Positions 1 through 17,420 of a stretch of 60,315 nt of DNA are shown piece after piece; position 1 is the first letter of the stretch, and every line of letters starts with the position of its first letter. The position numbers and the translations under genes are program-made. Source of the stretch: Marinobacterium iners DSM 11526 (lineage in GTDB: Bacteria; Pseudomonadota; Gammaproteobacteria; Pseudomonadales; Balneatricaceae); assembly GCF_900107855.1 (NCBI RefSeq), contig NZ_FNRJ01000020.1, positions 1-60,315 of the forward strand. Direction: 5' to 3'. Below the pieces are notes generated by a model, which was not told the origin of the DNA, did no database searches, and worked only from the letters and a program-made list of their open reading frames with translations.

Positions 1-166
1 GCTCAAGGTATTACACAACGCTAAATGAATATTCAGTTAGGTTGCTTGCCTTGATTAAGCTTTGTGTGCTCAATCCTGACAAGCGCCCACACATATTACC
101 TGATCAATTTGTTAAAGAGCGGGCTTGGCCAACCGCACCGTTCGGTGCAACCTGTTGTCTCAAGCG
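1..166 (-). promoter_or_regulatory. rRNA operon leader with boxB-boxA-boxC antitermination signals
   Basis: On the minus strand this is the 5' leader of an rRNA operon. A boxA-type element (CTCTTTAACAA, complement of 109-119) is preceded in the transcript by a small hairpin (135-148, 5-bp stem, boxB-like) and followed by GTGTGGGC (complement of 85-92, boxC-like). This is the B-A-C order of E. coli rrn leaders, which loads the NusB/NusE/SuhB antitermination complex. The mature 16S sequence lies beyond base 1. No protein gene is supported in 1-318. Confidence 0.9.
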
Positions 167-174
167 AGGCGCGT

Positions 175-202
175 ATTCTACCGCAACCCGTTTCAGTGTC
201 AA
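175..202 (-). promoter_or_regulatory. rRNA promoter P2
   Basis: A second minus-strand promoter has the same core as P1: TTGACA (complement of 197-202), 16-bp spacer and TAGAAT (complement of 175-180), followed by ACGCG. It lies 98 bp downstream of P1 and upstream of the boxB-boxA-boxC leader, so the tandem P1-P2 arrangement matches that of enteric rRNA operons. Confidence 0.87.
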
Positions 203-272
203 CCATTTTTTCGTTTGTTTTCACTGCCTTGGCGGAGAAAACAACGCGCGGTCAGCGCTGATGAGGTGGCGT

Positions 273-300
273 ATTCTACAGCGATTCGGATCGCTGTCAA
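273..300 (-). promoter_or_regulatory. rRNA promoter P1
   Basis: Minus-strand -35 TTGACA (complement of 295-300) and -10 TAGAAT (complement of 273-278) are separated by 16 bp, the spacing typical of rrn P1 promoters. The bases after the -10 are GC-rich (ACGCC), like a stringent-control discriminator. An A/T-rich stretch at 309-321, overlapping the murI stop codon, could serve as an UP element. A second TTGACA lies 11 bp upstream (complement of 306-311). Confidence 0.88.
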
Positions 301-318
301 CGCCCTGTCAAAACTTTT

Positions 319-1179
319 TTAACACTCAGAAGCGTAGTGCTGGATATCGATCAGTTCAACCGAACCCGGATCGATTCGCTCATTGAAAAAGTTCGTCGCC
401 ACTCGTGCAAAGCGCTCTGGCCCATCTGTCACCAAAAAAGTCAGACTGCCCCGTATTTGGTTCTTGTTCTGCAGCGCTTTGGCTTCCAGCTCGCACTTTA
501 CCGCTTCAGCGGTGGTCTGAGCTGAATCAACCAACTGAATATCGTCACCAGTCACTGCTGCTATAGCACCCCTCAATGCAGGGAAATGAGTACAGCCTAA
601 TACCAGCGTATCCAACGGAAACTGACTATCAGCCACCAGCAGGGGCTGAAGACAACGCGCGACTATCTGCTCTACCAGGTCGCCTTCATGCCAACCTTCT
701 TCCGCCAAAGCAACAAACAGAGAGCATGCTTGAGCACGAATACGTGCATCGGGCCTCAAACGAAGAATAGCTTTCTGATATGCCTGATTGTTTGTTGTAC
801 TTTCGGTCGCGATAACACCGATATGCCCCTGTTGACTCACTCTGCACGCCGCATCAGCACCTGGCTCGATTACACCCAGTACCAGAAGATCCGGGTAGCA
901 GGCCTGCAAATGCTCAAGCGCCATGGCCGAGGCTGTGTTGCAGGCAACAACGATAGCCTTTATCTGGCGACTACTCAGAGCACAGACAGCCTGCTCGGCA
1001 TAACGCCGGACCGACAAGGCACTTTTTGTACCGTACGGCACCCTTGCGGTATCGCCGAGATAGACAAGATGTTCTTCCGGTAAGGCTTGCCTGAGCGCAT
1101 TAAGGACGGTCAAGCCGCCAACACCGGAGTCAAATACACCAATGGCATATTCTGATCGTGAATCTACAGACTTAGCCAT
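319..1179 (-). CDS. murI: glutamate racemase
   Basis: Interconverts L- and D-glutamate in the cytoplasm, supplying D-glutamate for peptidoglycan. The protein (about 286 residues) has the racemase signatures [11 protein letters not shown] near the N-terminus, and the two catalytic cysteine motifs VVACNTASA and [11 protein letters not shown]. An ATG at 1179 is preceded directly by an in-frame GTG at 1182; either start overlaps the der stop codon, so translation is probably coupled. It is the last gene before the rRNA promoters, and its stop codon lies against rRNA P1. The murI-rrn adjacency is also known in E. coli (murI-rrnB). Confidence 0.95.
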
Positions 1180-2614
1180 CACGTCGAGCTCGCTTCTTGG
1201 CTTTATGCTTCAGCGTTTTGATGTGTTGACGACTGCGCTCCTTTTTGGCTTCTTGACGAGCAGTCAGGGTATTTTTGCGTCCAGCAAAAGGATTGTCGCC
1301 CGTACGGAACTCAAATCGAATCGGTGTTCCACGTACTTTCAAATATTTGGTAAAGCGGTTTTCAAGATAGCGCTTGTAAGAGCCGGGTAACGCATCCGTC
1401 TGATTACCATGCACTACGATGATTGGCGGGTTGGAGCCACCCTGGTGTGCATAGCGTAACTTGATGCGTCGATTGTTTACTGCCGGCGGCTGGTGGTCAG
1501 CCACTACATCTTCCAGCAGTCGAGTCAGCTGATTGGTAGACCATTTCGCCATTGCTGAATCGAAAGCTTCGTTAACAGAGATATACAGATCACCAACACC
1601 CGAGCCATGCAGCGCAGAAATAAAGTGAAAGCGAGCAAATGCAGCAAATTCCAGTTTTCGTTCTACTTGCTTTTTAACATCGGCACGATCGTCCGGGCTC
1701 ATGCCATCCCATTTATTAAGTGCAACAACCAATGCCCGCCCAGAGTCAATGACAAACCCAAGCATGCTCAAGTCCTGCTCGGTTACACCCTCACGCGCAT
1801 CAATCACGCTGATAACAACATTTGCATCCTTGATTGCCTGCAGCGTTTTTACGATGGAGAACTTCTCCACCGCTTCTTTGATATTTTTCCGCCTTCGTAC
1901 ACCCGCTGTGTCGATCAGAATATATTTCTGCTCATCACGTTCATAAGGAATGTAGATACTGTCACGTGTTGTGCCCGCTTGGTCAAAGACAACCACGCGG
2001 TCTTCGCCCAGCATCCGGTTAACCAGGGTTGACTTACCCACGTTCGGGCGTCCGATCACGGCAATTCGAATATTATCTGTATAGGCTTCCTTAGCCGCCT
2101 CTTCGCCGCCCTCCTCTTCCTCAGAAACAAAGGGCGCCAGCACTTCGTCAATCAGCTGACTGACACCACGCCCGTGTGAAGCGGCTATGGCAACAGGCTC
2201 ACCAATACCGAGCGCATGAAAATCAGCCATTGCGGTATCCGGGTCGATCCCGTCGGTCTTGTTCACAACCAGCCAGCATGACTTATTGTTGCGCCGCAGG
2301 TGATCGGCAATCATTTCATCAGCCGGGTTGAGGCCTGCACGACCATCTACAAGGAACAGAACTACATCCGCTTCCTCTATCGCGAACAGTGACTGCTCGG
2401 CCATCCGTTGATCAATGCCGGCCTCATCCCCTGAAATACCACCAGTATCGATAACAATGTAGTCACAATCGCCAACACGGCCTTCTCCGTACTTGCGGTC
2501 ACGGGTCAAACCCGGCAAATCTGCAACAAGTGCATCACGCGAGCGTGTCAAACGATTGAACAGTGTGGATTTGCCAACGTTGGGACGACCAACCAGTGCA
2601 ATTACGGGCAACAT
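1172..2614 (-). CDS. der: ribosome biogenesis GTPase Der (EngA)
   Basis: Essential double-GTPase that binds the 50S subunit during maturation. Two G domains are visible: G1 motifs GRPNVGKST at about residues 9-17 and again near 185, each followed by its G3 motif (DTGG, then DTAG) and G4 motif (NKTD, then NKWD). A C-terminal KH-like domain begins near 360 and ends in a very basic tail rich in K and R. At 480 residues it is close to the family length. It sits between bamB (upstream) and murI (downstream), and the bamB-der order is conserved in gammaproteobacteria. Confidence 0.97.
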
Positions 2615-2635
2615 AGGATTTCACCTGAAAACAAC

Positions 2636-2668
2636 TCGGCGGCCACTGTGGATAACAGCGGCCGCCGA
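2636..2668 (-). terminator. GC-rich hairpin between bamB and der
   Basis: A 9-bp GC-rich outer stem (TCGGCGGCC pairing with GGCCGCCGA) and a 4-bp inner stem close a 5-base loop. On the minus strand it is followed by AGTTGTTTT. It could act as a partial terminator or attenuator lowering der-murI expression relative to bamB. The T run is imperfect, so full termination is doubtful. Confidence 0.5.
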
Positions 2669-2689
2669 TAATGGACCCACAGATCCGGA

Positions 2690-3838
2690 TTATTTAAATT
2701 TCAGCGCAGTCAGACGACCATCATTGCTGAGCACATAAAGCACATCATCACGTACCAGCAGATCACTCTGGACACCGGAGGAGCTGACGCGATGGCGAGC
2801 TGTAAAATGACCGTCAACCTGAGACAACACATGCAGATAACCATCTGCATCAGCCGTAACCAGAGAGTTACCGAGCACAACCGGTGTAGTCAGGCGTCGA
2901 TACTGAAGACCATCCTGGCTCCACACACTGGCACTGTTACGCGCATCGAATGCATGCACATGGTCTTCATCCGAAATTGCGTACACATTACCGAAACCAC
3001 CAGCAAGCCCACGATAGGTAGACAAATCCTGACTCCAGACAACCTGTCCATTACCTGGATTCAGTGCCACCAAGCGTCCCTGATAGCTGCCAACATAAAC
3101 GATACGGTTGTAGACAAGCGGTTTACCATCAATATCAACGATACGCTCAAGCTCCGACCGCCCCTCAGCCAGCGAAATACGCTGCTCCCAGACAGGCCGC
3201 CCCGATGCATTCTCGACGGCAACAAGCTTGCCATTGGCAAAACCGGCCAGAGTCAGGTCAGCAGCCACAATGGGGGCGCTTGTACCGCGCAGACTGAGAC
3301 GTGGTATCTGACTGTCATAACTCCAGCGCCGTTCACCACTGCCCACTTCAAGTGCCGTAATCTTGCCATCCAGCTGCTGTACAACAACGAGCTCCGCATT
3401 CATCTGCGGCTGGGAAATCACTTCGGAGGAAGCTTGGTAGCGCCAACGCTCACTACCGTCTGTGGTATCGAAAGCGATCACTTCACCCGACTCTGTCGCG
3501 AGGACCACGATACCGTTTCCGGCACCAACACCACCTCCTATCGGAGTTTCCAACTCGACACGCCAATTGATACGCCCGGATGCCAGATCCGCTGCAACCA
3601 GATCACCTTCAACATTGACTGCAAAAATCTGCTGTTCATCAATGGAAGGAACCAGTTGATGAAACTTGGAGCCCAAACTACCACCGGTACTCAGACTCCA
3701 CAGCTGTTGAAATTGCTGTTCGGCTTCGAAGTCAACCAGTGGATTTGGCTCAACGGTTTCTTCGCTACTGAACAACCCACAGCCAGCAAGGGAAACACTC
3801 ACGGCAATCGCTGCGGCTGTTTTTACCCAGCATTTCAT
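2690..3838 (-). CDS. bamB: outer membrane assembly lipoprotein BamB
   Basis: Accessory subunit of the BAM complex that inserts beta-barrel proteins into the outer membrane. The N-terminus is a lipoprotein signal with lipobox LAGC and Cys20 as the lipidated residue. The rest of the 382 residues shows repeated PQQ-type beta-propeller blades with W/G-rich signatures (for example GRINWRVE, GSERWRYQ, GQVVWSQD). The start overlaps the yfgM stop by 4 bases, and der follows downstream as in other gammaproteobacteria. Confidence 0.95.
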   Translation of the reverse strand: MKCWVKTAAAIAVSVSLAGCGLFSSEETVEPNPLVDFEAEQQFQQLWSLSTGGSLGSKFHQLVPSIDEQQIFAVNVEGDLVAADLASGRINWRVELETPIGGGVGAGNGIVVLATESGEVIAFDTTDGSERWRYQASSEVISQPQMNAELVVVQQLDGKITALEVGSGERRWSYDSQIPRLSLRGTSAPIVAADLTLAGFANGKLVAVENASGRPVWEQRISLAEGRSELERIVDIDGKPLVYNRIVYVGSYQGRLVALNPGNGQVVWSQDLSTYRGLAGGFGNVYAISDEDHVHAFDARNSASVWSQDGLQYRRLTTPVVLGNSLVTADADGYLHVLSQVDGHFTARHRVSSSGVQSDLLVRDDVLYVLSNDGRLTALKFK

Positions 3839-4494
3839 GACTCGGCTCCTGCAAGGTCATCCCGTTTCATTTTCAGAAGCGGACGCAGCTGTTCGCCGCC
3901 GCCCAGCTGCAGGGCTCGATCATAGGCTGCGAAAGCTTCAGCCGGTCGACCGTTATTGGCATGAAGGTCTCCCAGAAGTTCCTGATACTGCACCTCATAA
4001 GTACCCGCATCAGCATTCTCCAGCAGGCTAATAGCAGTATCCGCGTTCCCCTGCTGGCTCAACAGCATTGCCTTTCGCAGTGTAGCCACACGAACAATAT
4101 TATCGACTTCATCCGTTGCGCCCAAGGTCCAGTCCAGCTCCTGCAACGCGCGCTCAACCTCTCCATTTCCAACGGCCATTGCTGCCATCATGAGGGCACC
4201 ATAGCGTGCATAAGCCGTGTCAGCGTAGTCAGAGCGAAGCTGCTCATTCAGATGAACCGCTGTTGCATATTGAGAGTCATTCACACCACCGGCAGACAGC
4301 TGTACCGCTTCTGTCAGATTCTGGTAAAGGGCAGACGCATTGGCTGCTTTCTGCTCCTGATTACTCTGCCAGGCTTTCCAGCCGAGCACGATTGCCACCG
4401 CAGCCGCGACACCAACTACCAATGCCTTGCCGTTTTCCTTCCACCAATCCTTGAGCGCCTGCACCTGCTCTTCTTCGGTACGCAATTCTGCCAC
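3835..4494 (-). CDS. yfgM: YfgM family tetratricopeptide-like protein
   Basis: Inner-membrane protein with a large periplasmic TPR-like domain. In E. coli YfgM associates with the SecYEG translocon and periplasmic chaperones. A short acidic cytoplasmic N-terminus with WWKENGKAL is followed by one membrane helix at about residues 24-42, then alanine-rich helical repeats to residue 219. Its position between hisS and bamB, with a 4-base ATGA overlap with bamB, supports the assignment. Confidence 0.92.
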   Translation of the reverse strand: MAELRTEEEQVQALKDWWKENGKALVVGVAAAVAIVLGWKAWQSNQEQKAANASALYQNLTEAVQLSAGGVNDSQYATAVHLNEQLRSDYADTAYARYGALMMAAMAVGNGEVERALQELDWTLGATDEVDNIVRVATLRKAMLLSQQGNADTAISLLENADAGTYEVQYQELLGDLHANNGRPAEAFAAYDRALQLGGGEQLRPLLKMKRDDLAGAES

Positions 4495-4531
4495 TGTCCA
4501 CTCCTGCTAAATTGAATCGCCTGGCTAAACT

Positions 4532-5800
4532 TCAGCGTGTAAAGATTTGTTTCAGCTGGTCTGTCAGCTGCTGAATGCCAAGATCATATACTGTCTGTTC
4601 CTGATACCAAAGAGATGCCTGCATCTCATCGGACTCGGTTTGCTTGAGTAGCGCTATTACCGGCGCTCCGGTCTGACGAGCTTTGGCCGCGATATTTTTC
4701 AGTCCCGAGCAGTGGGTTCGAATACGGAGCCCCGGCAGGCATTCACGCAGCTGCTCGGCCAGCAAAATCAGGTCCGCCTGCAACCCCTTGTGTTCTGCCG
4801 CCAGGTAAAGATCAAAGGTCTGACGCACATGATCGGGAACCAACGCCAGAGTCTCAAGCAGAAGAATCAAACGCTCAACACCCATTGCAAAACCAACCGC
4901 AGGTGTTGGTTTCCCGCCAAGCTGCTTTACCAGCCCATCATAGCGACCACCGGCACATACAGTACCCTGAGCCCCCAGTTGGTCTGTTACCCATTCGAAA
5001 ACGGTTTTGCAATAATAGTCCAGACCACGAACCAGATAAGGGTTAACCTCATACTGCACTCCGGCAGCATCCAGAATTGCGCACAGCTGCTCGAAGTCAG
5101 CCGCAGACTCCTGATCGAGGTAGTCTGTCAGTACCGGGGCCTGCTCAAGCAGTTTGCGCGTACCCTCGTCCTTGGAGTCCAGGATACGCAGAGGGTTTGA
5201 TTCCAGCCTGCGCAGGCTGTCTTCATCAAGCTGGTCAGAATGCCTGCTAAGATATTCCACCAGTGCATCGCGGTAACGTGCGCGCGCTTCGTTGCTGCCC
5301 AGTGAGTTCAGCTGCAGCGTTACAGACTGGTCCAGGCCCAGTTGACGCCACAAAGCGGCACTCATGAGAATAATTTCAGCATCAATATCCGGTCCGGCCA
5401 TACCAAAAGCTTCAACACCTACTTGATGGAACTGGCGATAACGACCTTTTTGTGGTTTTTCATAACGAAACATGGGCCCCTGATACCAGAGACGCTGCGT
5501 CTGATTGTACAGGAGGCCATGCTCTTCACCGGCACGAACACAACATGCCGTCCCCTCTGGCCGCAATGTCAGACTTTCGCCATTGCGATCTTCAAAGGTA
5601 TACATTTCTTTCTCAACAATATCGGTTACTTCACCTATTGAGCGCTTGAACAGATCAGTTTGCTCTACCACCGGCATGCGAATTTCAGCATAGCCATAGC
5701 TACCAAGTACATTTTTTACAGTGCTTTCAAGGTACTGCCAAACCGGTGTCTGGTCCGGCAGGATGTCATTCATGCCGCGAATGGCTTTAATTTTGCTCAA
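4532..5800 (-). CDS. hisS: histidyl-tRNA synthetase
   Basis: Class II aminoacyl-tRNA synthetase charging tRNA-His in the cytoplasm. The 422-residue protein has the family N-terminus (IRGMNDILP), motif 2 around [15 protein letters not shown], the histidine-specific stretches LVRGLDYY and AGGRYDGL, and motif 3 near [11 protein letters not shown]-terminal anticodon-binding domain spans about 330-422. A catalytically degenerate paralogue, hisZ, is encoded at 18758-19936. Confidence 0.97.
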
Positions 5801-5841
5801 AACGTCAGCTTTCCTGTTTCGATGAGAATATGTGGGAACTT

Positions 5842-6777
5842 TTAAAGAGGTAGACTAAAACGGGCGACATTGTCCTTGCTCAACACGGCAAGATCAATGG
5901 ACTCCCCTTCATAGCTGAGCATACGTACGGCATTGACCTTACCGATAACCACAGCCAACGTGGAGTCGCTCTGGAAATTGAGCGACTGGCCTGCCTGCGC
6001 CACACCGTTGAACAACGTGCGCCCACCAACCTCACGAATGCTGATCCAGCAGTCATCGCTGAATGCCACTTCGAGACCGTTGGAAACCGACGTAGCAGGA
6101 GTAGACTCCCGCTCCTGCTCAGCCGCAGAGGACGCCGCCCCTTGCTCGTCCTGCAATTGTTCGATCTGCTCTTCAGTAAGGTAGACCGGTTCTTCCTCAT
6201 CGGCCGCTGCGATGGGCGCGGCAATAACGTCCTCACTCTTGTCTGAAGCAGACCCCTCAGGGGCAACATCATCCAACTGAGGTAAAATCAAGGTGTTTCC
6301 ATCGCTGGTTTCTATTGATAAAGGCCTGTTATCCAGTGGTTCACGATCTGCTGTCGTGAGGCCCTGCTGGGTTTGCCACCACCAGACACTGGCTGCAATC
6401 AGTGCCAGTACAAAAAGCCAACTGCCAATCTTGAGCAATGGACGCCCCTGATGACGACCCGGTACGGTTGAAACCGTACCGATGGCCTTAACCGCACTGG
6501 CCATTTGGACATTACCGCTTGCACGATTATAACTGGCAACGATTGCATCTGCGTCAAGCCTGAGAAACTTGGCATAGGAACGTATATAGCCACGCGAAAA
6601 AACAGGGTCAGACAGGTACTGCAGGTCCCCCTTTTCAATCGCTTGTACAACCGCCTTGGATAAATTCAGCTGCCTGCATACCTGTTCAACACTCAGCCCT
6701 TGCTGCTCACGGGCCTGAGTGAACTGAACTGCTGGAAAATCGCTGCTTGTGCTTTCGGACCGGGCTTCTTCGCTCAC
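5842..6777 (-). CDS. rodZ: cytoskeletal protein RodZ
   Basis: Inner-membrane protein that links MreB filaments to the cell-wall elongation machinery. It has a helix-turn-helix-like N-terminal domain at about 20-85 ([18 protein letters not shown]), a basic stretch and one membrane helix around 118-135, and a long acidic periplasmic linker rich in D, E and A. A C-terminal beta domain begins near 225 ([14 protein letters not shown]). It overlaps pilW by 4 bases. The next gene is hisS; ispG, which often intervenes, is absent here. Confidence 0.93.
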
Positions 6778-7550
6778 TGAGCTGTCTCCTCATAAAGCCG
6801 ATATTCTTGCGACTTCGGGTACAAATTCTTGAGCAGCAGCGCATAGGTTGCAGCACGGGACACATTACGCTCTGCGCGAGCCAGCCGTATCCCCAACCAA
6901 AGACTTCTGGAGCTGTGCTCTGTACGCTGCTGATCAACCAGTTCACGAAAACGTTCAAACAGACGATTGGATGCTGCATTCTCGCCCTTATCCAGCAACA
7001 ACCCAGACAGCTCGACCAACGCAACCGGCCGGTTACCATTAATTGCCAGAGAGCGCCTGAAGGCCTCTTCCGCTTTCTCAGGTGAATCGATCAAAAGGTA
7101 ACATCGGCCCAGATTCTCGAATGCCTGCGCACGCTGCTGATAAAAAGGATCAGTGGTTGCCTGGTTAAGCTGCTCACATGCCTCTCCATAACGCTGCTGC
7201 GAGAACAGGAAGGCTCCGTAGTTGTTATGAATCATGGCGGAGGTTCTGTCAGCCGACATCGCCTTGCGGAAATATTCTTCAGCGAGCTCGAATTCCTGCT
7301 CGGTCTGAAAAATCAGCGCCATTGCGTTATAGGCCGGGGCATAGCCGGAATCGATTGCTATGGCACGCTGAACCGACGTTTTGGCATTGACGGTATTGCC
7401 CGCCTGAAGATACTGCAGACCAAGATTGGTATAGGCCTCCAGTGCATCCTGAGGTGAATTGGCAGCATTGCCGGAACCGGTGGTCTGGCTCGCGCAGCCA
7501 GCCATCAGCGTTACTGCAAGCAGCCACATCAACACACCGGATCGTTTCAC
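6774..7550 (-). CDS. pilW: type IV pilus biogenesis lipoprotein PilW/PilF
   Basis: Outer-membrane pilotin-type lipoprotein, needed in type IV pilus systems for assembly of the secretin PilQ. A signal peptide ends in lipobox MAGC with Cys19 as the lipid site. The mature 240 residues are made of TPR repeats (for example LGLQYLQAGN, APAYNAMALIFQ, MIHNNYGAFLFSQQRYGEA). Placement between rlmN and rodZ, with a 4-base overlap to rodZ, is the standard order. The name PilF is used for the same protein in Pseudomonas. Confidence 0.92.
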   Translation of the reverse strand: MKRSGVLMWLLAVTLMAGCASQTTGSGNAANSPQDALEAYTNLGLQYLQAGNTVNAKTSVQRAIAIDSGYAPAYNAMALIFQTEQEFELAEEYFRKAMSADRTSAMIHNNYGAFLFSQQRYGEACEQLNQATTDPFYQQRAQAFENLGRCYLLIDSPEKAEEAFRRSLAINGNRPVALVELSGLLLDKGENAASNRLFERFRELVDQQRTEHSSRSLWLGIRLARAERNVSRAATYALLLKNLYPKSQEYRLYEETAQ

Positions 7551-7559
7551 TCTACCCCC

Positions 7560-8708
7560 TTATAACCTTTGACTCTTTCCGTGAACAGGCTCTTCTTGTA
7601 CCACAGGAATATACTTTTGGCTACGCCGGGTACGGTCTTCAACCTGACCCACAAGCTGCCCACAAGCTGCATCCACATCATCGCCACGGGTACGCCTTAC
7701 CGTCGTAATGATCGAAGCTTTCAGCATAATATCCTTGAAGCGCTGAATCGCCCCTTCCGATGGGCGACGATAATCAGAATTGGGGAAAGGGTTGAACGGA
7801 ATGAGGTTCAACTTACAGGGCACCTGGCGCAGCACCTTAACCAGCTCCCGCGCGTGCTCAGGCTGATCATTAACACCCTCAATAAGAGTGTACTCGACCG
7901 TAATTACACGCTTGTCATTCAATCCCTCAAGATAACGATTGCAGGCGGCGATCAGCTCTTCAATTGGGTAACGCTTGTTGATTGGAACCAGTTCGTTACG
8001 CAATGCATTGTTTGGTGCGTGCAGCGAAATGGCCAATGATACGTCACTGACTTCACGCAGCCTGTCCAGTGCAGGCACCACACCCGCCGTACTCAGCGTA
8101 ACGCGACGTTTAGACAGACCGTAGGCATTGTCATCCATCATCAATTGAGTCGCATCAACAACATTGTCGAAGTTCATAAGCGGCTCACCCATGCCCATCA
8201 ACACCACGTTGCTGACCCGGCGCTCTGACGGATCAAACGGGCCATAGGCACGAATAGCCACACGGAGCTGAGCAATAATTTCAGCCGTTGACAGGTTACG
8301 GTTGAAACCCTGCTTGCCGGTCGAACAGAAACTGCAATCAAGTGAGCACCCGACCTGTGATGACACACACAGCGTACGTCGGTCGCCATCAGGTATGAGT
8401 ACCATTTCGATCGCCGAACCACCATCCATCCGAATGACCCATTTGCGGGTCCCGTCCTTGGACACCTTGTCCAACAGGATCTCAGGCTCGCGAATTTCAG
8501 CCATTTCAGCCAATCGAGCACGCAACGCCTTGCTGATATTGGTCATCTCATCGAAGCTGGATGCGCCCTGCTGATGCAGCCATTTAAGTACCTGAGTGGC
8601 ACGAAAACGCTTTTCGCCCATCTGCTCAAAAAAGTCTTCCAGCTTGGTGGGCGACAGTCCCAGCAGATTGATCTTGGTGGGGGACTCGGACATCGGATGT
8701 TTACTCAT
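7560..8708 (-). CDS. rlmN: dual-specificity 23S rRNA/tRNA adenine-C2 methyltransferase RlmN
   Basis: Radical SAM enzyme that methylates C2 of A2503 in 23S rRNA and A37 of some tRNAs. The radical SAM motif CSLDCSFC gives the CxxxCxxC ligands of the 4Fe-4S cluster. A GMGEP motif and a C-terminal conserved cysteine in DDVDAACGQ complete the family pattern. The 382-residue length is normal. Starts at 8708 or at an in-frame ATG at 8693 are both possible. Its Fe-S cluster is presumably supplied by the ISC system encoded nearby. Confidence 0.95.
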
Positions 8709-8721
8709 CTTTGGGGTAACA

Positions 8722-8741
8722 GGCTGCCCGGACGGGCAGCC
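8722..8741 (-). terminator. hairpin downstream of ndk
   Basis: An 8-bp GC-rich stem (GGCTGCCC with GGGCAGCC) closes a 4-base loop just after the ndk stop codon. No real T run follows on the minus strand, so it may be a 3'-end stabiliser or weak terminator. Confidence 0.45.
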
Positions 8742-8752
8742 CGAAGGGTCTA

Positions 8753-9160
8753 TCAGGCGCCGAAGAAATAGGCGATTTCGCGCTCGGCAGAAGAGGCAGA
8801 GTCGGAGCCGTGTACCGCATTGGCATCAATGGACTCGGCGAAGTCACGGCGAATGGTGCCCTCAGCCGCTTCTTTCGGGTTAGTCGTGCCCATCAGTTCG
8901 CGATTCAGAGCAATTGCATTCTCGCCTTCCAGCACCTGAACAACAACCGGACCGGAAGTCATGAAGGCAACCAGGTCAGCAAAGAACGGACGCTCTTTAT
9001 GCTCAGCGTAGAAGCCTTCAGCGTCTTGCTTGCTCAGCTGCTTCATCTGCATGGCGACAATTTTCAGATCAGCTTTCTCAAAACGGCTAACGATTTCGCC
9101 AATTACGTTTTTTGCCACTGCGTCCGGTTTGATGATGGAAAGTGTGCGTTCAACTGCCAT
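8753..9160 (-). CDS. ndk: nucleoside diphosphate kinase
   Basis: Transfers the gamma phosphate from ATP to nucleoside diphosphates through a phosphohistidine intermediate. The active-site histidine is His117 in NAVHGSD, and [12 protein letters not shown] is the usual N-terminus. I chose the ATG at 9160 because MAVERTLS matches the family start; an in-frame ATG at 9175 would add five atypical residues. At 135 residues the protein lacks the last few residues of the common 141-143-residue form. A TATAAT -10 lies about 45 bases upstream. Confidence 0.96.
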
Positions 9161-9205
9161 AGGTAACATCCCCAATCTATAGTACTAAGGTCAATAAGGC
9201 GCAAC

Positions 9206-9234
9206 ATTATACGCAAAGCACCTCTTACTGAACA
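9206..9234 (-). promoter_or_regulatory. putative ndk promoter
   Basis: A consensus TATAAT (complement of 9206-9211) is preceded, after 17 bp, by a weak -35 TGTTCA (complement of 9229-9234). It lies between the end of iscX and the ndk start, so ndk is probably transcribed independently of the ISC operon. Confidence 0.55.
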
Positions 9235-9253
9235 GCAGCGACTCTCAAAGCTG

Positions 9254-9454
9254 TCAATCCATTTCCTCGATCCAGGCCATCTGGATCGCTTCGAGGATTT
9301 TTTCGCCACAGTGATCAGGATCATCATCAAACTCATCGAGTTCCATCACCCGACTATAAAGGTCGGGGAAACTGATTCTCAGCGGATCCTGTTCCGGAAA
9401 GCGCTCAACCAGCTCTATGGCAATATCGTTTACATCCGTCCACTTGAGACCCAT
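9254..9454 (-). CDS. iscX: Fe-S assembly adaptor IscX
   Basis: Small acidic protein (66 residues) that binds IscS and iron and modulates Fe-S cluster assembly. The sequence has the family features: an MGLKWTDVNDIA start, a central DPLRISFPDL segment, and an acidic DEFDDDPDHCGEKILE stretch ending in W-I-E-E-M-D. It is the final gene of the isc operon, 8 bases after fdx, as in E. coli. Confidence 0.95.
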   Translation of the reverse strand: MGLKWTDVNDIAIELVERFPEQDPLRISFPDLYSRVMELDEFDDDPDHCGEKILEAIQMAWIEEMD

Positions 9455-9462
9455 AACTCACC

Positions 9463-9801
9463 TCAGTGCTGTTCTGACACCTGATTAATGGTGTACTTGG
9501 GAATTTCAACTACCAGATCCATACTATCCACAACCGCCTGACAACTGAGACGCGACTCCGGCTCAAGCCCCCAGGCCTTGTCGAGCATGTCGTCTTCGAG
9601 CTCATCCGCCTCATTAAGAGAATCAAAGCCTTCGCGTACAATGACATGACAGGTGGTACAGGCGCAGGATTTTTCGCAGGCATGTTCAATTTCGATGCCG
9701 TTGGCCAGTGCCAGATCACAGATTGTGATGCCGCCTTCTGTCTCTATGACCTTGCCTTCAGGGCACAATTCCTCATGCGGAAGAAAGATTACCTGTGGCA
9801 T
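9463..9801 (-). CDS. fdx: ISC-type [2Fe-2S] ferredoxin
   Basis: Electron-carrying ferredoxin of the ISC pathway that donates electrons during cluster assembly. Cluster ligands are the cysteines in CEKSCACTTCH plus the distal Cys in SRLSCQAVV. The 112-residue length is typical. Its ATG shares one base with the hscA stop codon (TGATG), indicating coupled translation, and iscX follows. Confidence 0.95.
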   Translation of the reverse strand: MPQVIFLPHEELCPEGKVIETEGGITICDLALANGIEIEHACEKSCACTTCHVIVREGFDSLNEADELEDDMLDKAWGLEPESRLSCQAVVDSMDLVVEIPKYTINQVSEQH

Positions 9802-11681
9802 CAGCGGGTCTCCTTATCGATTTCATCAATGGTATGGCCGGACAGGGCACGGGAAATGCTCTGGTCCATCCGACGTGAAGCGAAGAAGTCACTGGCCTTG
9901 GCCAACTGCTCAACCCCCGCTTCGATGCGACGGTAATCAGCCTCTGCAACCAGTCGCTCAAGCGTTGCAATTTCGGACTGCAGCATGGAGACTTCAGCCT
10001 CATTCAGGAGGCCTCCATCCTGCGACATGGCCGCCCTCAGTGCAGCAATAATACGCTCGGCCTCAACCTGCTGCTCTCGCAGATTTCGAGCCTCAAGATC
10101 TTCTGCCGCATGACTGTAGGACTCCTTCAGCATACGTGCAATTTCGTCATCGCTCAGGCCATAGGACGGCTTCACCTGAATGCTGCTGACCACACCTGTT
10201 GAAAGCTCCTGTGCGGACACATTGAGCAAACCGTCGGCATCAACCTGAAAAGTCACACGAATCTTGGCTGCACCCGCGGCCATCGGCGGAATATCGCGCA
10301 GAACAAAGCGTGCCAGTGAACGGCAGTCACTGACCAGTTCACGCTCGCCCTGAAGCACGTGGATCGCCATTGCGGTCTGACCATCCTGATAGGTGGTGAA
10401 CTCCTGCGCCCTTGCAACCGGGATCGCCGTATTACGGTGTACAATCTTTTCAACCAGCCCACCCATGGTTTCAAGTCCGAGGGACAGGGGAATGACATCC
10501 AGCAGCAGCATGTCACTGTCAGGTTTGTTGCCAACCAGCACATCCGCCTGCAGCGCCGCTCCGATCGCCACCACACGATCCGGATCTATATCAATATGTG
10601 GCGCTCGACCAAAGAACTCGCCCACCGCATCGCGTACACGCGGTACGCGGGTTGAGCCGCCCACCATGACAACTTCAGCGATATCAGCCTTATCTATGCC
10701 CGCATCCTTCAATGTACGTCGACAGGTACGCAGGGTACGGCTCACAAGCGGTTCGATCAGCGCATCAAACTGGGCACGGGAAACATGCACCTCCACCTCC
10801 CGACCACCGGCCGAAAGGGTCTCAGTTATCTCAGCTTCATTCGTAAGGCGCTCTTTTATGCGTCGCGCAAGGGCTGAAACGCTGCGTGCCGATGACGCAT
10901 CCAACTGCTCAGCCAAACCACTCTGCTGCAACAGGTATTCCGCCAGCATGCGGTCGAAATCATCACCACCCAGCGCCGTATCGCCACCGGTAGCCAACAC
11001 TTCAAACACTCCACGGTTCAGTCGCAGAATGGAGATATCAAAGGTTCCACCGCCCAGATCATAGACGGCGATCACGCCCTCATCTTCCTGATCCAGACCA
11101 TAAGCAACCGCTGCAGCCGTCGGTTCGTTCAGCAGGCGAAGCACCTTAAGTCCGGCAAGCTGCGCCGCATCCTTCGTTGCCTGACGCTGAGCATCATCAA
11201 AATAGGCAGGGACCGTAATAACGGCACCTTCCAATTCACCACCCAGCGCCGCACGCGCACGCTCAGCCAATTCAGACAATATATCAGCCGATACCTCTAC
11301 CGGGCTCTTGTTCCCGGCCGCCGTTTGCAGATAGGGCATGCCAGAATCGGACGCGACCAGATGATACGGCATTTCGTCACCCAGCCCTTTCATCGCCTCT
11401 ACGCCACGCCCCATCAAGCGCTTGACTGAACTGATGGTATTGTGTGGATCCTGGGCTGCACCTGCCAGCGCTCCAGCACCTACCAGAGGAGCCTCGCCGG
11501 CGCGATAGCGCACAACTGAGGGCAACAGATGTACCCCCTGCGCATCCGCCAGGGTAACAGCAGCCCCACTGCGCACCGATGCTACCAGTGAGTTCGTCGT
11601 ACCCAGATCAATTCCGACCGCCAGCTTGCGCGCGTGCGGCTCCGGACTCTGTCCGGGTTCAGCTATTTGCAGTAGTGCCAT
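9801..11681 (-). CDS. hscA: Hsp70-type chaperone HscA
   Basis: Specialised Hsp70 that, with HscB, drives release of Fe-S clusters from IscU. The nucleotide-binding domain shows [10 protein letters not shown] at about 22-31, [13 protein letters not shown] and [15 protein letters not shown]; the substrate-binding domain follows from about residue 390. I take the start at 11681 ([10 protein letters not shown]), giving 626 residues. The upstream open frame to 11840 runs through hscB in another frame and looks noncoding. Confidence 0.95.
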
Positions 11682-11691
11682 AGTGCTTCCG

Positions 11692-12222
11692 TTAGTCTTC
11701 GAACAGTCTGTCTTCGAGCGCTGCGACTTCCGTCTGCAGCTTGGACATGAATTGCATCTTGCGCACCTGTAGCTCCGCCTGCTCCAGCGACTGGGCTTCC
11801 CAGGCACGAGCAAAGCCGGACTCCAGCGAGCGCAGCTCATCCTCTACCAACGCCGTCAAACGCTCCAACTCCGCTTCGGGGTCACTGCATTCAGGCGCTT
11901 CAGCTACCTGCTCACGCAGTTCCATCTGCTCCATGAGAAACATGGGATCGAGCTGTACGCGTGAATCATGCAGTGTATCGATACCTTGGAGGGATAATAG
12001 ATACTGCGCTCGCCGCAACGGTGACTTGAGAGTAGAGAGGGCTTCATTCAGATAGGCAGTATACTGAACCGCAAGACGCTGCTCTCGGTCAGACTGATGT
12101 GAATGTCTGTCAGGATGAAGCTGCTTTTGCAGCTCCCTGTAACGCGAGGAGAGTTCGGCCTGATCGATATCAAAACCGACCGGCAGGCCGAGAAATTCAA
12201 AATAGTTGCGCGTGATATCCAT
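11692..12222 (-). CDS. hscB: J-domain co-chaperone HscB
   Basis: Co-chaperone that delivers IscU to HscA and stimulates its ATPase. The J domain at residues 1-75 contains the HPD tripeptide (QLHPDRHS), and a C-terminal three-helix bundle binds IscU. The ATG at 12222 gives 176 residues; a TTG one codon earlier is also in frame. It lies between iscA and hscA in the canonical operon order. Confidence 0.94.
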
Positions 12223-12249
12223 CAACCGACCTCAATAACCCCGAACGGG

Positions 12250-12573
12250 TCAGATGTTGAAGCTTTCACCGCAACCACATTCACTTCGTACGTTCGGGTT
12301 GTTGAACTTGAACCCTTCGTTGAGCCCTTCTCGAACAAAGTCCAGCTCAGTACCGTCAAGGTAAGTCAGGCTTTTGGGGTCAATCATTACCTTCACTCCA
12401 CCGAACTCAAACACCTCATCTTCAGGCTCGCCGGAATCAACAAATTCCAGCACATAAGCCATGCCGGAGCAGCCCGAGGTTCTGACGCCAAGGCGTATAC
12501 CTTCCCCGTGGCCTCGCTGTTCCAGGTAGCGCGCGACATGGTCAACCGCGGCCTGTGTCATGCTAATCGCCAT
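12250..12573 (-). CDS. iscA: A-type Fe-S carrier IscA
   Basis: A-type carrier that passes Fe-S clusters to apoproteins. The three conserved cysteines are in [10 protein letters not shown] and SECGCGESF. The start at 12573 ([10 protein letters not shown]) gives 107 residues, the same as E. coli IscA. An upstream extension to 12612 would run through the iscU-iscA hairpin and is unlikely to be translated. Confidence 0.95.
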
Positions 12574-12587
12574 AATCACCCCAGTAA

Positions 12588-12605
12588 CGGGGGCACCAGC
12601 CCCCG
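12588..12605 (-). terminator. hairpin between iscU and iscA
   Basis: A perfect 7-bp stem (CGGGGGC with GCCCCCG) closes a 4-base loop in the 39-base iscU-iscA gap. There is no T run, so it is more likely an attenuator or an mRNA-stabilising element for the iscRSU part than a true terminator. Confidence 0.45.
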
Positions 12606-12612
12606 CTTTCAC

Positions 12613-12996
12613 TCACTTCTGCTGTTTCTTGCGGTAGTCTTCTACTGCAGCCTTGATCGCATCTTCGGCCAGAACCGAGCAGTGGATCTTCACCGGCGGC
12701 AATGCCAGCTCTTCGGCAATACGAGAGTTTTTCAGCTCGGATGCCTGATCCAGTGTCATCCCCTTGACCCACTCGGTCACCAGAGAGCTGGATGCAATGG
12801 CTGACCCGCAGCCGTAGGTCTTGAAGCGTGCATCTTCAATTACACCCTCGTCACTGACCTTGATCTGCAGTCGCATTACGTCACCACACGCCGGGGCACC
12901 AACCATACCGGTGCCTACATGCGGGTCATCGGCGTCCATTTTACCGACATTGCGCGGATTTTCGTAATGATCAATTACCTGTTCGCTGTAAGCCAT
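12613..12996 (-). CDS. iscU: Fe-S cluster scaffold IscU
   Basis: Scaffold on which IscS assembles [2Fe-2S] clusters. Ligand motifs are GAPACGDV, KTYGCGSAIASSS and KIHCSVLAEDAI, together with the HscA-recognition LPPVK motif (ALPPVKIHC). The 127-residue length and the N-terminal YSEQVIDHYENPRNVG match the family. It lies 27 bases after iscS. Confidence 0.97.
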   Translation of the reverse strand: MAYSEQVIDHYENPRNVGKMDADDPHVGTGMVGAPACGDVMRLQIKVSDEGVIEDARFKTYGCGSAIASSSLVTEWVKGMTLDQASELKNSRIAEELALPPVKIHCSVLAEDAIKAAVEDYRKKQQK

Positions 12997-13023
12997 GATA
13001 AACCTCCAAAAACTTTAGCGGTG

Positions 13024-14238
13024 TTAGTGGTGAACCCACTCAACCTTGCTCAAATCGACGCCGTCTTTATACATATCCCACAGCGGCGACAGTTCACGCA
13101 GTTTTTCCACTGCGTGACGGCATTGTTCAACTGCATAATCCACCTCTTCTTCAGTGGTGAATCGACCCAGCGAGAAACGGATGGAGCTGTGTGCCAGCTC
13201 ATCATTCAACCCCAGTGCACGCAGCACATAGGACGGTTCAAGGCTTGCTGAGGTACAGGCAGAGCCTGAGGAAACCGCCAGATCCTTTATCGACATTAGC
13301 AGCGACTCGCCTTCCACGAAGGCAAAGCTGATATTCAGGATTCCCGGTACGCGCTGCTCGGTGGAGCCGTTAACGTGAACCTCTTCCATATTCTGCACAC
13401 CATCCCAAAGACGTGCGCGCAGTGTTTCAAGCCGGGCAGTTTCAGCCGCCATCTCTTCACCTGCGATACGGAAAGCCTCACCCATCCCTACAATCTGATG
13501 GGTCGGCAAGGTACCGGAACGCATGCCACGCTCGTGACCACCGCCATGAATCTGTGCTTCGATGCGTACACGCGGCTTGCGGCGTACATAAAGAGCACCA
13601 ACACCCTTGGGGCCATAAATCTTGTGTGCGCAGACCGACAGCAGATCCACCTTTAGCTCGTTGAGATTGATTGGCAGTTTGCCAGCGCTCTGAGCCGCGT
13701 CGACGTGGAAGAGAACACCCTTTTCACGGGTAATCTCGCCGATGGCCGCGATATCGGTAATGGTGCCGATTTCATTATTCACGTGCATCAGGGACACCAG
13801 AATAGTGTCATCACGCAGCGCTTCGGAAACCTGGCGCGGACTGATAATACCGTTGCTGTCCGGTTCCAGATATGTCACCTCAAAACCTTCACGTTCCAGC
13901 TGACGGCAGGGGTCAAGCACCGCCTTGTGCTCAATTTTCGAGGTGATGATATGTTTACCCTTCTTGTTATAGAAGTGGGCAACACCCTTGATTGCAAGGT
14001 TGTCAGACTCGGTGGCACCGGATGTCCAAACAATTTCACGCGGGTCCGCACCCAGCAGATCAGCCACCTGACGACGCGCATTTTCCACCGCTTCTTCAGC
14101 TTTCCAGCCGAACAGGTGGGAACGGGACGCCGGGTTACCAAAGTTCCCGTCCAGTGTCAGACACTCGGTCATCTTCTGAGCCACGCGCGGATCAACCGGT
14201 GTGGTTGCAGCGTAATCAAGATAGATCGGCAGTTTCAT
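13024..14238 (-). CDS. iscS: cysteine desulfurase IscS
   Basis: PLP enzyme that converts cysteine to alanine and passes persulfide sulfur to IscU and to tRNA-thiolation pathways. The PLP lysine is in [12 protein letters not shown] and the mobile catalytic cysteine is in [10 protein letters not shown], near residue 328. The start at 14238 ([12 protein letters not shown]) gives 404 residues, identical in length to E. coli IscS; an in-frame ATG at 14262 would add eight atypical residues and overlap iscR. Confidence 0.97.
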
Positions 14239-14258
14239 CTCATCTCTCCAAAAAACTC

Positions 14259-14741
14259 TCACACAGCGGCTTTGTGGCGCACTGATTGTTCGGTAGTACT
14301 GGCGATCAGCCGCTGCTGACGATCTGCCACCTGTTGGACATCTCGTCGTGCAACCAGATCAGCCAGACTGATGCTACTCAGAAAGCCGTGAATCTGATCA
14401 CTCAGGTCGCACCAGAGATGATGCGTCAGGCATACTTCACCACCCTGACAGCCACCGTTGTGCTGGCAGCCGGTTGCATCCACCGACTCGTTGACCGCAT
14501 CGATCACTTCAGCCACATTGATCAGACCCTGCTCTCGCTTGAGCTGATATCCTCCACCAGGCCCACGCACACTGCGCACAAGCTCGTTGCGGCGAAGCTT
14601 GGCAAACAGCTGCTCCAGATAAGACAGAGAGATTCCCTGCCGTTCGGAGATATCAGCCAGGCTGATCGGCCCCTTGCCTTCGTGTAATGCCAGATCAAGC
14701 ATCGCCGTTACGGCGTAACGCCCTTTAGTTGTCAATCGCAT
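14259..14741 (-). CDS. iscR: Fe-S cluster-sensing regulator IscR
   Basis: Rrf2-family transcription factor that represses the isc operon when it carries a [2Fe-2S] cluster. The N-terminal winged helix includes [15 protein letters not shown] and [14 protein letters not shown]. Cluster ligands are Cys92, Cys98, Cys104 and probably His107, the same numbering as E. coli IscR. It is the first gene of the operon, and a near-consensus type 1 IscR site overlaps its promoter, consistent with autorepression. Confidence 0.97.
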
Positions 14742-14778
14742 AATTATCCCTCACACCCACTCTTGCGAGTCTGTGGGT

Positions 14779-14811
14779 ATTATGCAAATTCCTACTAAAT
14801 TAGTCAACTAT
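14779..14811 (-). promoter_or_regulatory. iscR promoter with type 1 IscR binding site
   Basis: On the minus strand, -35 TTGACT (complement of 14802-14807) and -10 CATAAT (complement of 14779-14784) are 17 bp apart. The complement of 14788-14811 reads ATAGTTGACTAA, then TTTAGTAGGAAT. It agrees closely with the known type 1 IscR consensus (ATASYYGACTRWWWYAGTCRRSTAT) in its left half and partly in the right. The site covers the -35 and the cysE stop codon, so repression by [2Fe-2S]-IscR is expected. Confidence 0.85.
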
Positions 14812-15632
14812 TTGTCCGACATGTTCACCGGGTCTTTGCGCTCCGCTGCAGGACGCAACGTTTCAGGCTCATCCACCGCGGCTTCAAAATCTTCCGACTT
14901 CAGCTCAGGCAGCTCCTCGTTGCAATAGCCCGGCTTGAGCTCACACAGCGCCTTACCCATGGTTTCAACCTTGTGATCCATCGCCTGCATGTGATCCAGC
15001 AGACAACGAATGGCATGTGCCACCGGATCAGACACTTCACGGGAAACCGCATAGGCATCAAACCCAACCTTATCTGCCATTTGGCGCCGTTTTTGCTCTT
15101 CAGGAGAGTCTTCATCGGGATGGCGTCGAATCACGCGCCCGGGAATACCGACCACTGTGGCATCCGCTGGCACGTCACGCGTAACTACGGCATTGGAGCC
15201 AACACGCGCACCCTCGCCGATCATAATGGGACCCAGCACCTTCGCACCTGCACCGCATACCACGTTATTTCCAAGCGTGGGATGGCGCTTCCCCTTATTC
15301 CAGGTGGTGCCGCCCAGAGTCACGCCATGATAGAGCGTTACATCATCACCAATCTCGGCGGTTTCCCCGATCACAACCCCCATGCCGTGATCGATGAAAA
15401 AACGCCGTCCAATGGTCGCACCTGGATGAATTTCAATACCTGTCAGCCAACGCGCAAGATTGGAAATCATTCGCGCCAGCCATTTCAAGCCCTTGTGCCA
15501 GAACCAGTTGGCAATACGGTGAAACCAGATTGCGTGCAATCCAGGGTAGGCCGTCAACACCTCGAAGGCATTACGTGCAGCAGGGTCCCGGTGAAATACC
15601 GAGCGAATATCTTCACGAACCTGATCAAACAT
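14808..15632 (-). CDS. cysE: serine O-acetyltransferase
   Basis: Makes O-acetylserine from serine and acetyl-CoA, the committed step of cysteine synthesis. The C-terminal half is a left-handed beta-helix of hexapeptide repeats, with the signatures [19 protein letters not shown] and [10 protein letters not shown]. The 274-residue length is close to the enteric enzyme. It starts inside the 3' end of trmJ (8-base overlap) and lies directly upstream of iscR, so cysteine supply and its consumer IscS are neighbours. Confidence 0.95.
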
Positions 15633-16383
15633 CGGATTTGTCCTTTTTCACTTGCCCCGAACGGCGCTCGATGGCCGTAAGGATACCGCGTAATACATTC
15701 ACTTCGACTTTATCCGGCACAGCACGTTGAAGCAGACGTCGCAAGCGAGGCATCAACTGACGCGGGTTATTCGGATCAAGAAACTCAATCTCCACCAACG
15801 TACGCTCAAGGTGTTCAAACATCAGTTCCAGCTCACGCTGCTCTGCCAGCTCTATATCCCAGTCAGTCCCCCACTGGGGGCGGGCCGCCTGTTGATCGGC
15901 CACTTGTGCCATTCGCAACTCGTAGGTAATAACCTGTACAGCCGCTGCAATATTGAGCGAGCTAAAACTTTCAACAGCCGGGATATGTACATGGTGGTGA
16001 CAACGCTGCAGTTCCTCGTTGGTCAATCCCCGGTCTTCGCGGCCAAACAGAATGGCAACACGCGCCTTACCTTCGAGCGGAATCGCGATGGCAGCCAGCT
16101 CGCGAGGATTTACCAGCGGCCAGGGAATATGACGCTCACGTGCACTGGTACCGAAAATCAGCCCACAATCCGCCAATGCCTCATCCAGGGTAGACACCAC
16201 GCGGGCCTTCTCAAGGATATCGGTCGCACCCGAGGCTCTGGCATCGGCATCAGGATGTGGAAAGCTCTTGGGCTCTACCAGACAAAGATCACTGACACCC
16301 ATATTCTTCATCGCTCGCGCGACACCACCGATATTACCGGGATGGGTTGTGTTAACCAGTACGATTCTGATGTGATCAGACAT
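15625..16383 (-). CDS. trmJ: tRNA Cm32/Um32 methyltransferase TrmJ
   Basis: SPOUT-family enzyme that 2'-O-methylates position 32 of several tRNAs. It has the N-terminal [25 protein letters not shown] signature, the [16 protein letters not shown] cofactor-binding segment and [10 protein letters not shown] of the deep trefoil knot. Length is 252 residues. It is divergent from suhB and leads into cysE, the same trmJ-cysE-iscR context found in many gammaproteobacteria. Confidence 0.95.
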
Positions 16384-16469
16384 AGGGAGGCACGCCGTTA
16401 AAAGCTGGCTATTCTATCAGAACATCACCGAGTTGCAGACCACCTGTTCAGCGCAGGCTCCGACTAAGC

Positions 16470-16475
16470 TACAAT
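16470..16475 (+). promoter_or_regulatory. putative -10 of the suhB promoter
   Basis: TACAAT lies 38 bases upstream of the suhB ATG, with a poor -35 (TTCAGC) 17 bp before it. The trmJ-suhB gap (130 bases) must hold divergent promoters; a TAGAAT on the opposite strand (complement of 16413-16418) may serve trmJ. Confidence 0.4.
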
Positions 16476-16513
16476 AGGACTTTGACAACCACGAAGACCG
16501 GAAACCGACACTG

Positions 16514-17329
16514 ATGCAACCGATGGTTAATATAGCACTGCGGGCAGCACGACTCGCAGGCGAACAGATTTCCCGCACCCTCGAACGCCTTGACCTGATC
16601 AAGTCCGAACAGGCCGATGTTGCTGAGTTCATCAGTGATCTGTGCCAGCAGGCTGAACGCACGATTACCAACACCATTCAAAAGGCGTACCCGCACCACA
16701 GCCTGATCGGTGAGTATACGGGTCAACATGCACCGATTGGTGAAGGCCCAGGCCACTGTGAATGGCATATCAGCCCGATTGACAGCCTGACCAACTTCTC
16801 CAACGCCCTGCCAATGTTCGCGCTCAGCATCACCGGTTTCGTCAACGGCAAGGCTGAACACTGCGTGGTACTCAACCCCATGTTTGGCGAAGAGTTCACC
16901 GCAAGCCGCGGCAAGGGCGCACAGCTGAACGGCAAGCGCCTGCGAGTAAGCAACCGCACTTCACTGGAAGGCGCCATCATCGGTACCGGCTATCACGCAC
17001 GCAAGAGCGACAAGCCCTGGCTGGAATCTCATGTTCGCATGATGCAGGAAATCATGCAGGCAGGCGCAACCCTCCACAACAGCGGATCTCCTGTACTGAG
17101 CCTGGCCTACACGGCAGCAGGACGGCTGGATGGGTTCTACCAGATCGGTCTCAGCCCTTCAGAGCTGTCGGCAGGACTGCTGCTGATCCGTGAGGCTGGA
17201 GGCCTGGTCGGCGACTTCTCTGGCGGCAACAGCTACAGCGAACGCGGCAACCTGGTCACGGCCAACTCCAAGATTCTCAAGGCCTTGCTGCGCACACTGC
17301 ACCCGGCCACTGCCGAAGGGTTACGCTGA
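16514..17329 (+). CDS. suhB: SuhB homologue with degenerate inositol monophosphatase active site
   Basis: The 271-residue protein aligns end to end with SuhB (MQPMVNIALRAAR start, EEFTASRGKGAQLNG core, LLIREAGGLVGDFSGG C-terminus). The metal-binding motifs are altered. The usual W-x-I-D-P-x-D-G-T reads WHISPIDSL, so the first Asp is Ser87 and the Thr is Leu92. The Asp of V-D-x-A-A-E is Cys44, and the motif-B W-D is Ser216-Glu217. Only Glu67 and Asp90 remain. In E. coli, SuhB is also a component of the rRNA antitermination complex, a role separable from its phosphatase activity. I infer that the non-enzymatic role is the one kept here. It ends at a bidirectional terminator. Confidence 0.9.
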   Translation: MQPMVNIALRAARLAGEQISRTLERLDLIKSEQADVAEFISDLCQQAERTITNTIQKAYPHHSLIGEYTGQHAPIGEGPGHCEWHISPIDSLTNFSNALPMFALSITGFVNGKAEHCVVLNPMFGEEFTASRGKGAQLNGKRLRVSNRTSLEGAIIGTGYHARKSDKPWLESHVRMMQEIMQAGATLHNSGSPVLSLAYTAAGRLDGFYQIGLSPSELSAGLLLIREAGGLVGDFSGGNSYSERGNLVTANSKILKALLRTLHPATAEGLR

Positions 17330-17367
17330 TTCATTCAGCTCGCTCCTGATCGAGCTTGCTTTAAGCC

Positions 17368-17400
17368 AAAAAAAACCGCATCCCTGGATGCGGTTTTTTT
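17368..17400. terminator. bidirectional terminator between suhB and purA
   Basis: CCGCATCC pairs with GGATGCGG (17376-17393). It is flanked by a run of eight A on the left and seven T on the right, so it is a classic intrinsic terminator in both directions for the convergent genes suhB (+) and purA (-). Confidence 0.92.
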
Positions 17401-17420
17401 CAGCTGCAGATCAGTGAATC

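Follow-up and report, generated by a model that had tools for sequence, protein, structure and literature searches.

Among the closest described systems is SuhB of Escherichia coli, for which binding to the second acidic repeat of NusA (NusA-AR2) and to the boxA-bearing rRNA leader has been shown in PMC6614801 and PMC4807359, together with retention of NusB/S10 on RNA polymerase, a delay of Rho and an influence on rRNA folding. PMC6614801 states that phosphatase activity is not needed for the Nus function, and PMC4807359 holds that this activity is probably not the primary function of SuhB. K251 and L254 of E. coli SuhB form the contact with NusA-AR2, and a double mutant lowers the affinity by over three orders of magnitude (PMC6614801). 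A boxA near the start of suhB, found in many gammaproteobacterial genera and functional in E. coli, is described as autoregulation in PMC5725501. It is unsettled why a transcription factor for rRNA should also be an inositol phosphatase. SuhB of P. aeruginosa (8wip, 8wdq, 9jfc) is the best solved fold match to the protein discussed here, with 47% identity in the structural alignment; unlike that protein it has a full catalytic site, and it has been solved with inositol-1-phosphate, according to the title of 8wdq. Pseudokinases and pseudophosphatases offer a further likeness in that a fold is retained and the catalytic motifs are gone. Many known pseudoenzymes are paralogues standing beside an active copy.

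The window is a stretch of 60,315 nucleotides from Marinobacterium iners DSM 11526, and its features are collected in Table 1. Window SuhB resembles E. coli SuhB in length, fold and the lysine and leucine of the NusA-AR2 contact, but keeps two of the six catalytic residues, all of which are present in E. coli; its gene also differs in having no boxA in the 260 bp searched upstream. Unlike in the paralogous pseudoenzymes, the dead copy here is the SuhB orthologue itself, in one family after another, and a PF00459 search showed no further SuhB-type gene in the window's genome. Genomes, contigs, loci and families are cited below by our own handles (G, C, L and f).

Table 1. Features of the window (strand as read; names trmJ, cysE, iscR and iscS are presumptive, assigned from family knowledge)
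Feature	Position	Strand	Remarks
suhB	16514..17329	+	ORF with ATG start, 271 aa; C44, Y68, S87, S91, L92, S216, E217 replaced; E67, D90 kept
Codons of K256 to L259	17279..17290	+	K256 and L259 are the counterparts of K251 and L254, which in E. coli contact NusA-AR2
Hairpin	17369..17400		Palindrome with runs of A and T, lying where suhB and purA converge; resembles a terminator in either direction
trmJ	15625..16383	-	Divergent neighbour marking the suhB locus
cysE	14808..15632	-	Syntenic
iscR	14259..14741	-	Syntenic
iscS	13024..14262	-	Syntenic
boxA of rRNA operon leader	109..120	-	GCTCTTTAACAA; operon runs off the contig; confirmed in two relatives

Alignment with E. coli SuhB places window residues C44, E67, Y68, S87, I89, D90, S91, L92, S216 and E217 at E. 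coli D44, E67, E68, D84, L86, D87, G88, T89, W211 and D212 (E. coli numbering is used hereafter), the changes being D44C, E68Y, D84S, L86I, G88S, T89L, W211S and D212E. Two of the six catalytic positions, E67 and D87, are retained. A preliminary description of this DNA had named the replacements C44, S87, L92 and E217, the exchange of Trp for Ser216 and the presence of Glu67 and Asp90, all of which the alignment bears out; E68Y, L86I and G88S come in addition. It had also called the four replaced residues metal ligands, a label that needs narrowing, since only two of the four side-chain ligands are altered (D84 to Ser and D212 to Glu; E67 and D87 are kept). Here we take the side-chain ligands to be E67, D84, D87 and D212, with D44 and T89 presumably catalytic residues that do not contact the metals directly.

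The protein passes the curated cut-off of Pfam Inositol_P (PF00459; 133.7 bits against 27) and misses that of the NCBIfam equivalog PRK10757 for inositol-1-monophosphatase (233.7 against 332 bits). In place of the DPxDG[ST] and WD motifs, PROSITE-type patterns which we take to be the signatures of active inositol monophosphatases (IMPases), it carries SPIDSL and SE, and neither signature is present. The first is found in none of 35 aligned dead rows and in 29/29 intact rows, and the second in 0/35 and 27/29, counts that are partly circular because the rows were sorted as dead or intact by these same residues. As had been proposed, the gene is no simple pseudogene: its frame is open, its dN/dS is low, and an identical protein (100%) is encoded by a second genome of the species, G072. 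Named relatives at 87-91% identity belong to Marinobacterium, and the loss of the catalytic centre is common to all eight genomes of the genus, the window's included. The strong terminator reported after suhB is real as a fold, with -21.5 kcal/mol and a z of -5.6 for positions 17355-17405, which cover the hairpin, though a pattern scan for terminators listed none at 17369-17400.

Window suhB is a true SuhB orthologue, as seen from its trmJ-cysE-iscR-iscS synteny and from its best match to SuhB structures. In all eight long loci, drawn from families f1, f6, f7 and f20, trmJ lies directly beside suhB, accompanied by cysE in five, iscR in six and iscS in seven; a further 20/20 dead copies have trmJ adjoining or within about 1 kb, and three intact copies of f35 have no trmJ in the stretch examined. 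The PF00459 search of the window's genome gave two matches, SuhB itself and a protein of 264 aa whose gene adjoins one resembling cysNC, and thus no second SuhB-type gene. The gene context of the 264-aa protein, and a DPLDGTKEF motif that we take to be that of CysQ, make it look like CysQ; it is all that a search for a second, intact inositol monophosphatase, proposed in the preliminary description, brought up. By hand count, with three genes split over contigs left out, 18 of the 114 matching f1 genomes have a second homologue at an E of 1e-20 or better. G187 (f43) carries a dead SuhB beside trmJ (L220) and an intact IMPase paralogue without trmJ (L230).

The window's family, f1, appears from its named members to include Marinobacterium, Nitrincola, Neptuniibacter, Amphritea, Aliamphritea and Pontibacterium. 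A suhB match was obtained in 114 of its 116 genomes (none in the other two), and residues were read in 86 of the 114, the 28 left out including split genes. Among these 86, D44 is kept in none, D84 and T89 in one each, D212 in three, E67 in 46 and D87 in all; Cys stands at 44 in 62, Asn, Ser or Thr at 84 in 80, and Glu at 212 in 54. Thus no more than two of the six residues survive in 85/86, and the remaining copy, L156, keeps four; of 46 named loci grouping with f1, two likewise keep four, whereas in the other 44 two is the maximum. All six are kept by 59 relatives sorted as intact. The only intermediates among 214 rows are L156, L065 and L067, each with four of six, a clean split that is partly built in because rows were sorted by these residues.

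A strict intact motif was found in 214 of 391 genomes of the order. Since some intact copies vary inside it (DGTL, DGTS, DGTQ, DGTR, DGTH), 30 genomes, mostly from families lacking the motif, were searched directly. A match was present in 29 (all but G304), and the best copies comprise nine intact and 20 dead ones, the latter from f6, f26, f36 and f37 (three each), f20 and f43 (two each) and f7, f38, f15 and f8 (one each). With L140, L141 and L142 (f6, f7 and f20), dead copies outside f1 number 23. In six other families of the order (f6, f7, f20, f26, f36 and f37), each genome read has a dead SuhB next to trmJ. In a sample of the class a relaxed motif occurs in 269/281 genomes, and the window's genome is among the 12 without it; the relaxed motif is no proof of an intact SuhB, because paralogues also give it, and G150 has a dead SuhB and two relaxed-motif matches. 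What had been described from a single genome is, judged by these residues, a trait of a whole multi-family clade.

Losses were counted on an rpoB tree rather than on a SuhB gene tree, because the fast-evolving dead copies would mislead. The tree holds 56 genomes with E. coli as outgroup (4/60 gave no rpoB). All 29 rows of f1, f6, f7, f20, f26, f36 and f37, every one dead, lie on one side of a branch with an SH-aLRT of 82 (not starred). The dead/intact label needs five changes, comprising the deep loss and a separate one for each of f15, f43, f8 and f38, and the count is the same when only starred branches are trusted. The tree thus points to a probable single loss of the centre ahead of the divergence of f1 and its six related families, and to four further losses in other parts of the order; a regain was regarded as unlikely. 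Resolution is limited in that f26 falls among the f1 rows, G014 of f1 falls outside them, and the f38 row is a long branch, as is G208. For f15 the intact state rests on copy L143 of G049, which is only 29% identical to the window protein and was assigned without synteny. For G014, whose RpoB is encoded in two frames, the tree uses the first part alone; the two overlapping pieces (L258 and L259) may reflect a sequencing error or a split gene.

The columns of the alignment may indicate what went with catalysis. We took as conserved the 75 columns in which at least 90% of the 29 intact rows share a residue, and as lost those in which the dead rows have another commonest residue or keep the same one in under half of the rows. 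In the 35 dead rows 24 of the 75 are lost, namely 11 of 15 that we take to be catalytic versus 13 of 60 others (p = 3e-4, a test partly built in since dead rows were sorted by catalytic residues). For f1 defined by taxonomy (17 rows, 16 genera) the figures are 12/15 versus 10/60 (p = 7e-6). When the sorting columns are dropped the contrast is weak, at 3/5 versus 10/60 in f1 (p = 0.05) and 3/5 versus 13/60 in all dead rows (p = 0.09). Kept in the dead rows are P3, several residues of the N-terminal helix, W81, P119, G130, G132, N136, R139, R141, E222, G224, G232 and K251. R184 is kept in 28/29 intact rows and in 0/17 rows of f1. D87 is invariant in f1 (86/86) despite the near-complete loss of D44, D84 and T89, a pattern for which mere abandonment of catalysis would not account; of the dead copies outside f1, 4/23 keep D87.

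Selection on the dead gene is strong. The median NG86 dN/dS of suhB over seven Marinobacterium sequences is 0.080, beside 0.055 for trmJ, 0.072 for cysE and 0.066 for purA (the last over six sequences). Amphritea-type suhB (n=7, one an Oceanospirillales MAG) gave a median of 0.046 and trmJ 0.079, with no value obtained for cysE; intact suhB of eight Porticoccaceae-type MAGs gave 0.040, with dS saturated in 4/28 pairs. An AF2 model built from a 36-sequence alignment has a mean pLDDT of 92.4, and its nearest solved folds are the SuhB proteins of P. aeruginosa and E. coli, including the complexes with NusA-AR2 and of rrn antitermination (6tqn); the best sequence matches among solved structures are the same two proteins. 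The window protein is accordingly predicted to keep the SuhB/IMPase fold.

The residue corresponding to K251 is Lys in 86/86 f1 members and in 19/23 other dead copies; that corresponding to L254 is less conserved, being Leu in 69/86 and 9/23. Matches to the NusA acidic repeat occur in all 30 genomes searched, two in 29 of them and one in G208. In the window's genome two TIGR01954 matches, both inside an open frame of 511 aa, lie 75 bases apart on the same contig and strand.

The boxA motif alone is weak evidence, because 11/100 shuffles of the window also match it at up to one mismatch. The window gave no rRNA hit with Rfam and the whole assembly no 16S match, the rRNA lying off the contig. 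In G072, which is a single contig, boxA stands about 150 bp before 16S (L292) and 16,394 bases from suhB, as in the window, so the boxA-bearing rRNA leader noted earlier is real. In G072 and in G001, a sister species also on one contig, a boxA precedes 16S by 150-160 bp and another precedes 23S by about 100 bp in the operon checked; each genome has ten exact boxA in five pairs about 2 kb apart, as rRNA operons would give, one pair of each having been checked with Rfam. Exact boxA occurs in 27/30 genomes, in 24 of them above the reversed control; the six without an excess are G054, G187 and G201, and two f6 genomes and one f35 genome in which the motif is absent.

Upstream of suhB itself, GCTCTTTA lies within 250 bp of 29/59 intact copies, these 29 being mostly close relatives of one another, versus 7/120 dead ones; the reversed heptamer gave 0/59 and 2/120. 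The seven dead copies include those of 3/3 f26 genomes read, in which a boxA stands 79-86 bp upstream of suhB, and the boxA-like GCTCTTTAAC precedes L213, L214 and L217 (f26) and L221 (f36). This suggests that Nus autoregulation may have outlived the enzyme in the f26 and f36 copies. By analogy, the f26 arrangement resembles the suhB autoregulation of PMC5725501.

In our judgement the SuhB orthologue has quite probably given up catalysis to serve purely as a Nus factor, and is retained for the antitermination and folding of rRNA. The IMPase fold would be kept, but residues needed to bind both catalytic metals and to orient the attacking water are missing, for which reason window SuhB should not hydrolyse inositol phosphates. 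As a dimer it would be expected to contact both NusA-AR2 and the boxA-bearing rRNA leader and in this way to hold NusB/S10 on RNA polymerase during rRNA synthesis; Rho would be delayed and rRNA folding guided. We infer the transfer of this mechanism from E. coli. That the protein is a pseudoenzyme kept by selection, as first proposed, is supported by the family-wide loss of the centre, the low dN/dS, the predicted fold and the synteny; that it is kept for rRNA antitermination draws indirect support from the invariant K251, the NusA acidic repeats, the rRNA boxA and the statement of PMC6614801 that E. coli SuhB does without the activity. The preliminary description was right on the residues and probably also on their meaning. 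Against this reading speak the lack of a boxA upstream of window suhB and its scarcity upstream of dead copies in general, the six genomes whose boxA count does not surpass the control, the weak contrast once the sorting columns are dropped, the loss of R184, the weaker conservation of L254 and the unexplained D87.

Some of these points would suit a conserved non-enzymatic role outside the Nus complex, namely the missing upstream boxA and the lost R184, and the Nus role of window SuhB itself is inferred; but K251 and the NusA acidic repeats are kept and dead suhB of f26 has an upstream boxA, and we regard such a role as very unlikely. The pocket could instead have been rebuilt, binding a ligand or metal, or sensing redox through C44, and feeding antitermination, or catalysing a different reaction. 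The fixed D87 of f1, the frequent C44, E67 and Asn, Ser or Thr at 84, and the predicted fold agree with this; however, E67 and C44 vary even within f1 and D87 is scarce in other dead copies, so there is no shared new site, and D87 may be structural. A rebuilt pocket thus seems unlikely to us, and we are a shade more sceptical of its narrower form, in which the invariant D87 and the common C44 and E67 of f1 would together create a regulatory site, responsive to a metal, a small ligand or redox, by which SuhB tunes antitermination; were it true, an enzyme would have turned sensor inside the Nus complex. It is hard to believe, too, that the protein is still a phosphatase, with a cryptic site of E67, D87 and E217 and weak metal-dependent hydrolysis: D87 is universal in f1, Glu is common at 212, and L156, L065 and L067 keep four of six residues, but D44, D84 and T89 are lost together, E67 is lost in 40/86, and both signatures presumed to mark active IMPases fail in 35/35 dead rows. 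The many replaced residues might finally be taken for a decaying pseudogene or a sequencing error, an idea that can practically be dismissed given the open frame, the low dN/dS, the presence of the gene in nearly all f1 genomes and the identical protein of G072.

No report of a naturally dead SuhB was found in the literature searched, which is weak evidence of novelty as subscription journals were mostly outside its coverage. The new part, as the residues and the rpoB tree present it, is the scale of an ancient, clade-wide and repeated loss. A seven-family clade and four lineages lost the centre and kept the gene, under strong selection where tested, seemingly a natural separation-of-function several times over, and this argues that the transcription role would be the essential or important one. 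Dead SuhBs would provide biochemistry with catalysis-free proteins, and the contrast of dead with intact copies separates candidate residues for catalysis from candidates for the Nus complex. The label inositol-1-monophosphatase would mislead in these bacteria.

A suhB lies some 15-18 kb from an exact boxA in the window (109-17329) and in G072, G001, G101, G061, G062, G094, G024, G020, G074 and G104; an rRNA operon is confirmed at that boxA in G072 and G001, and the spacing is absent in G008 and G017. In the genomes that show it, suhB, the isc genes and rRNA would form a conserved neighbourhood. The window's genome has five exact boxA, three of them near contig ends (C3, C7 and C33). Of the other two, neither adjoining rRNA, one falls inside a 588-aa frame (L289) and one, at about 1050-1061 of contig 44 of G000, precedes a 212-aa frame (L290) by about 150 bp, which may reflect either chance or a Nus-regulated gene.
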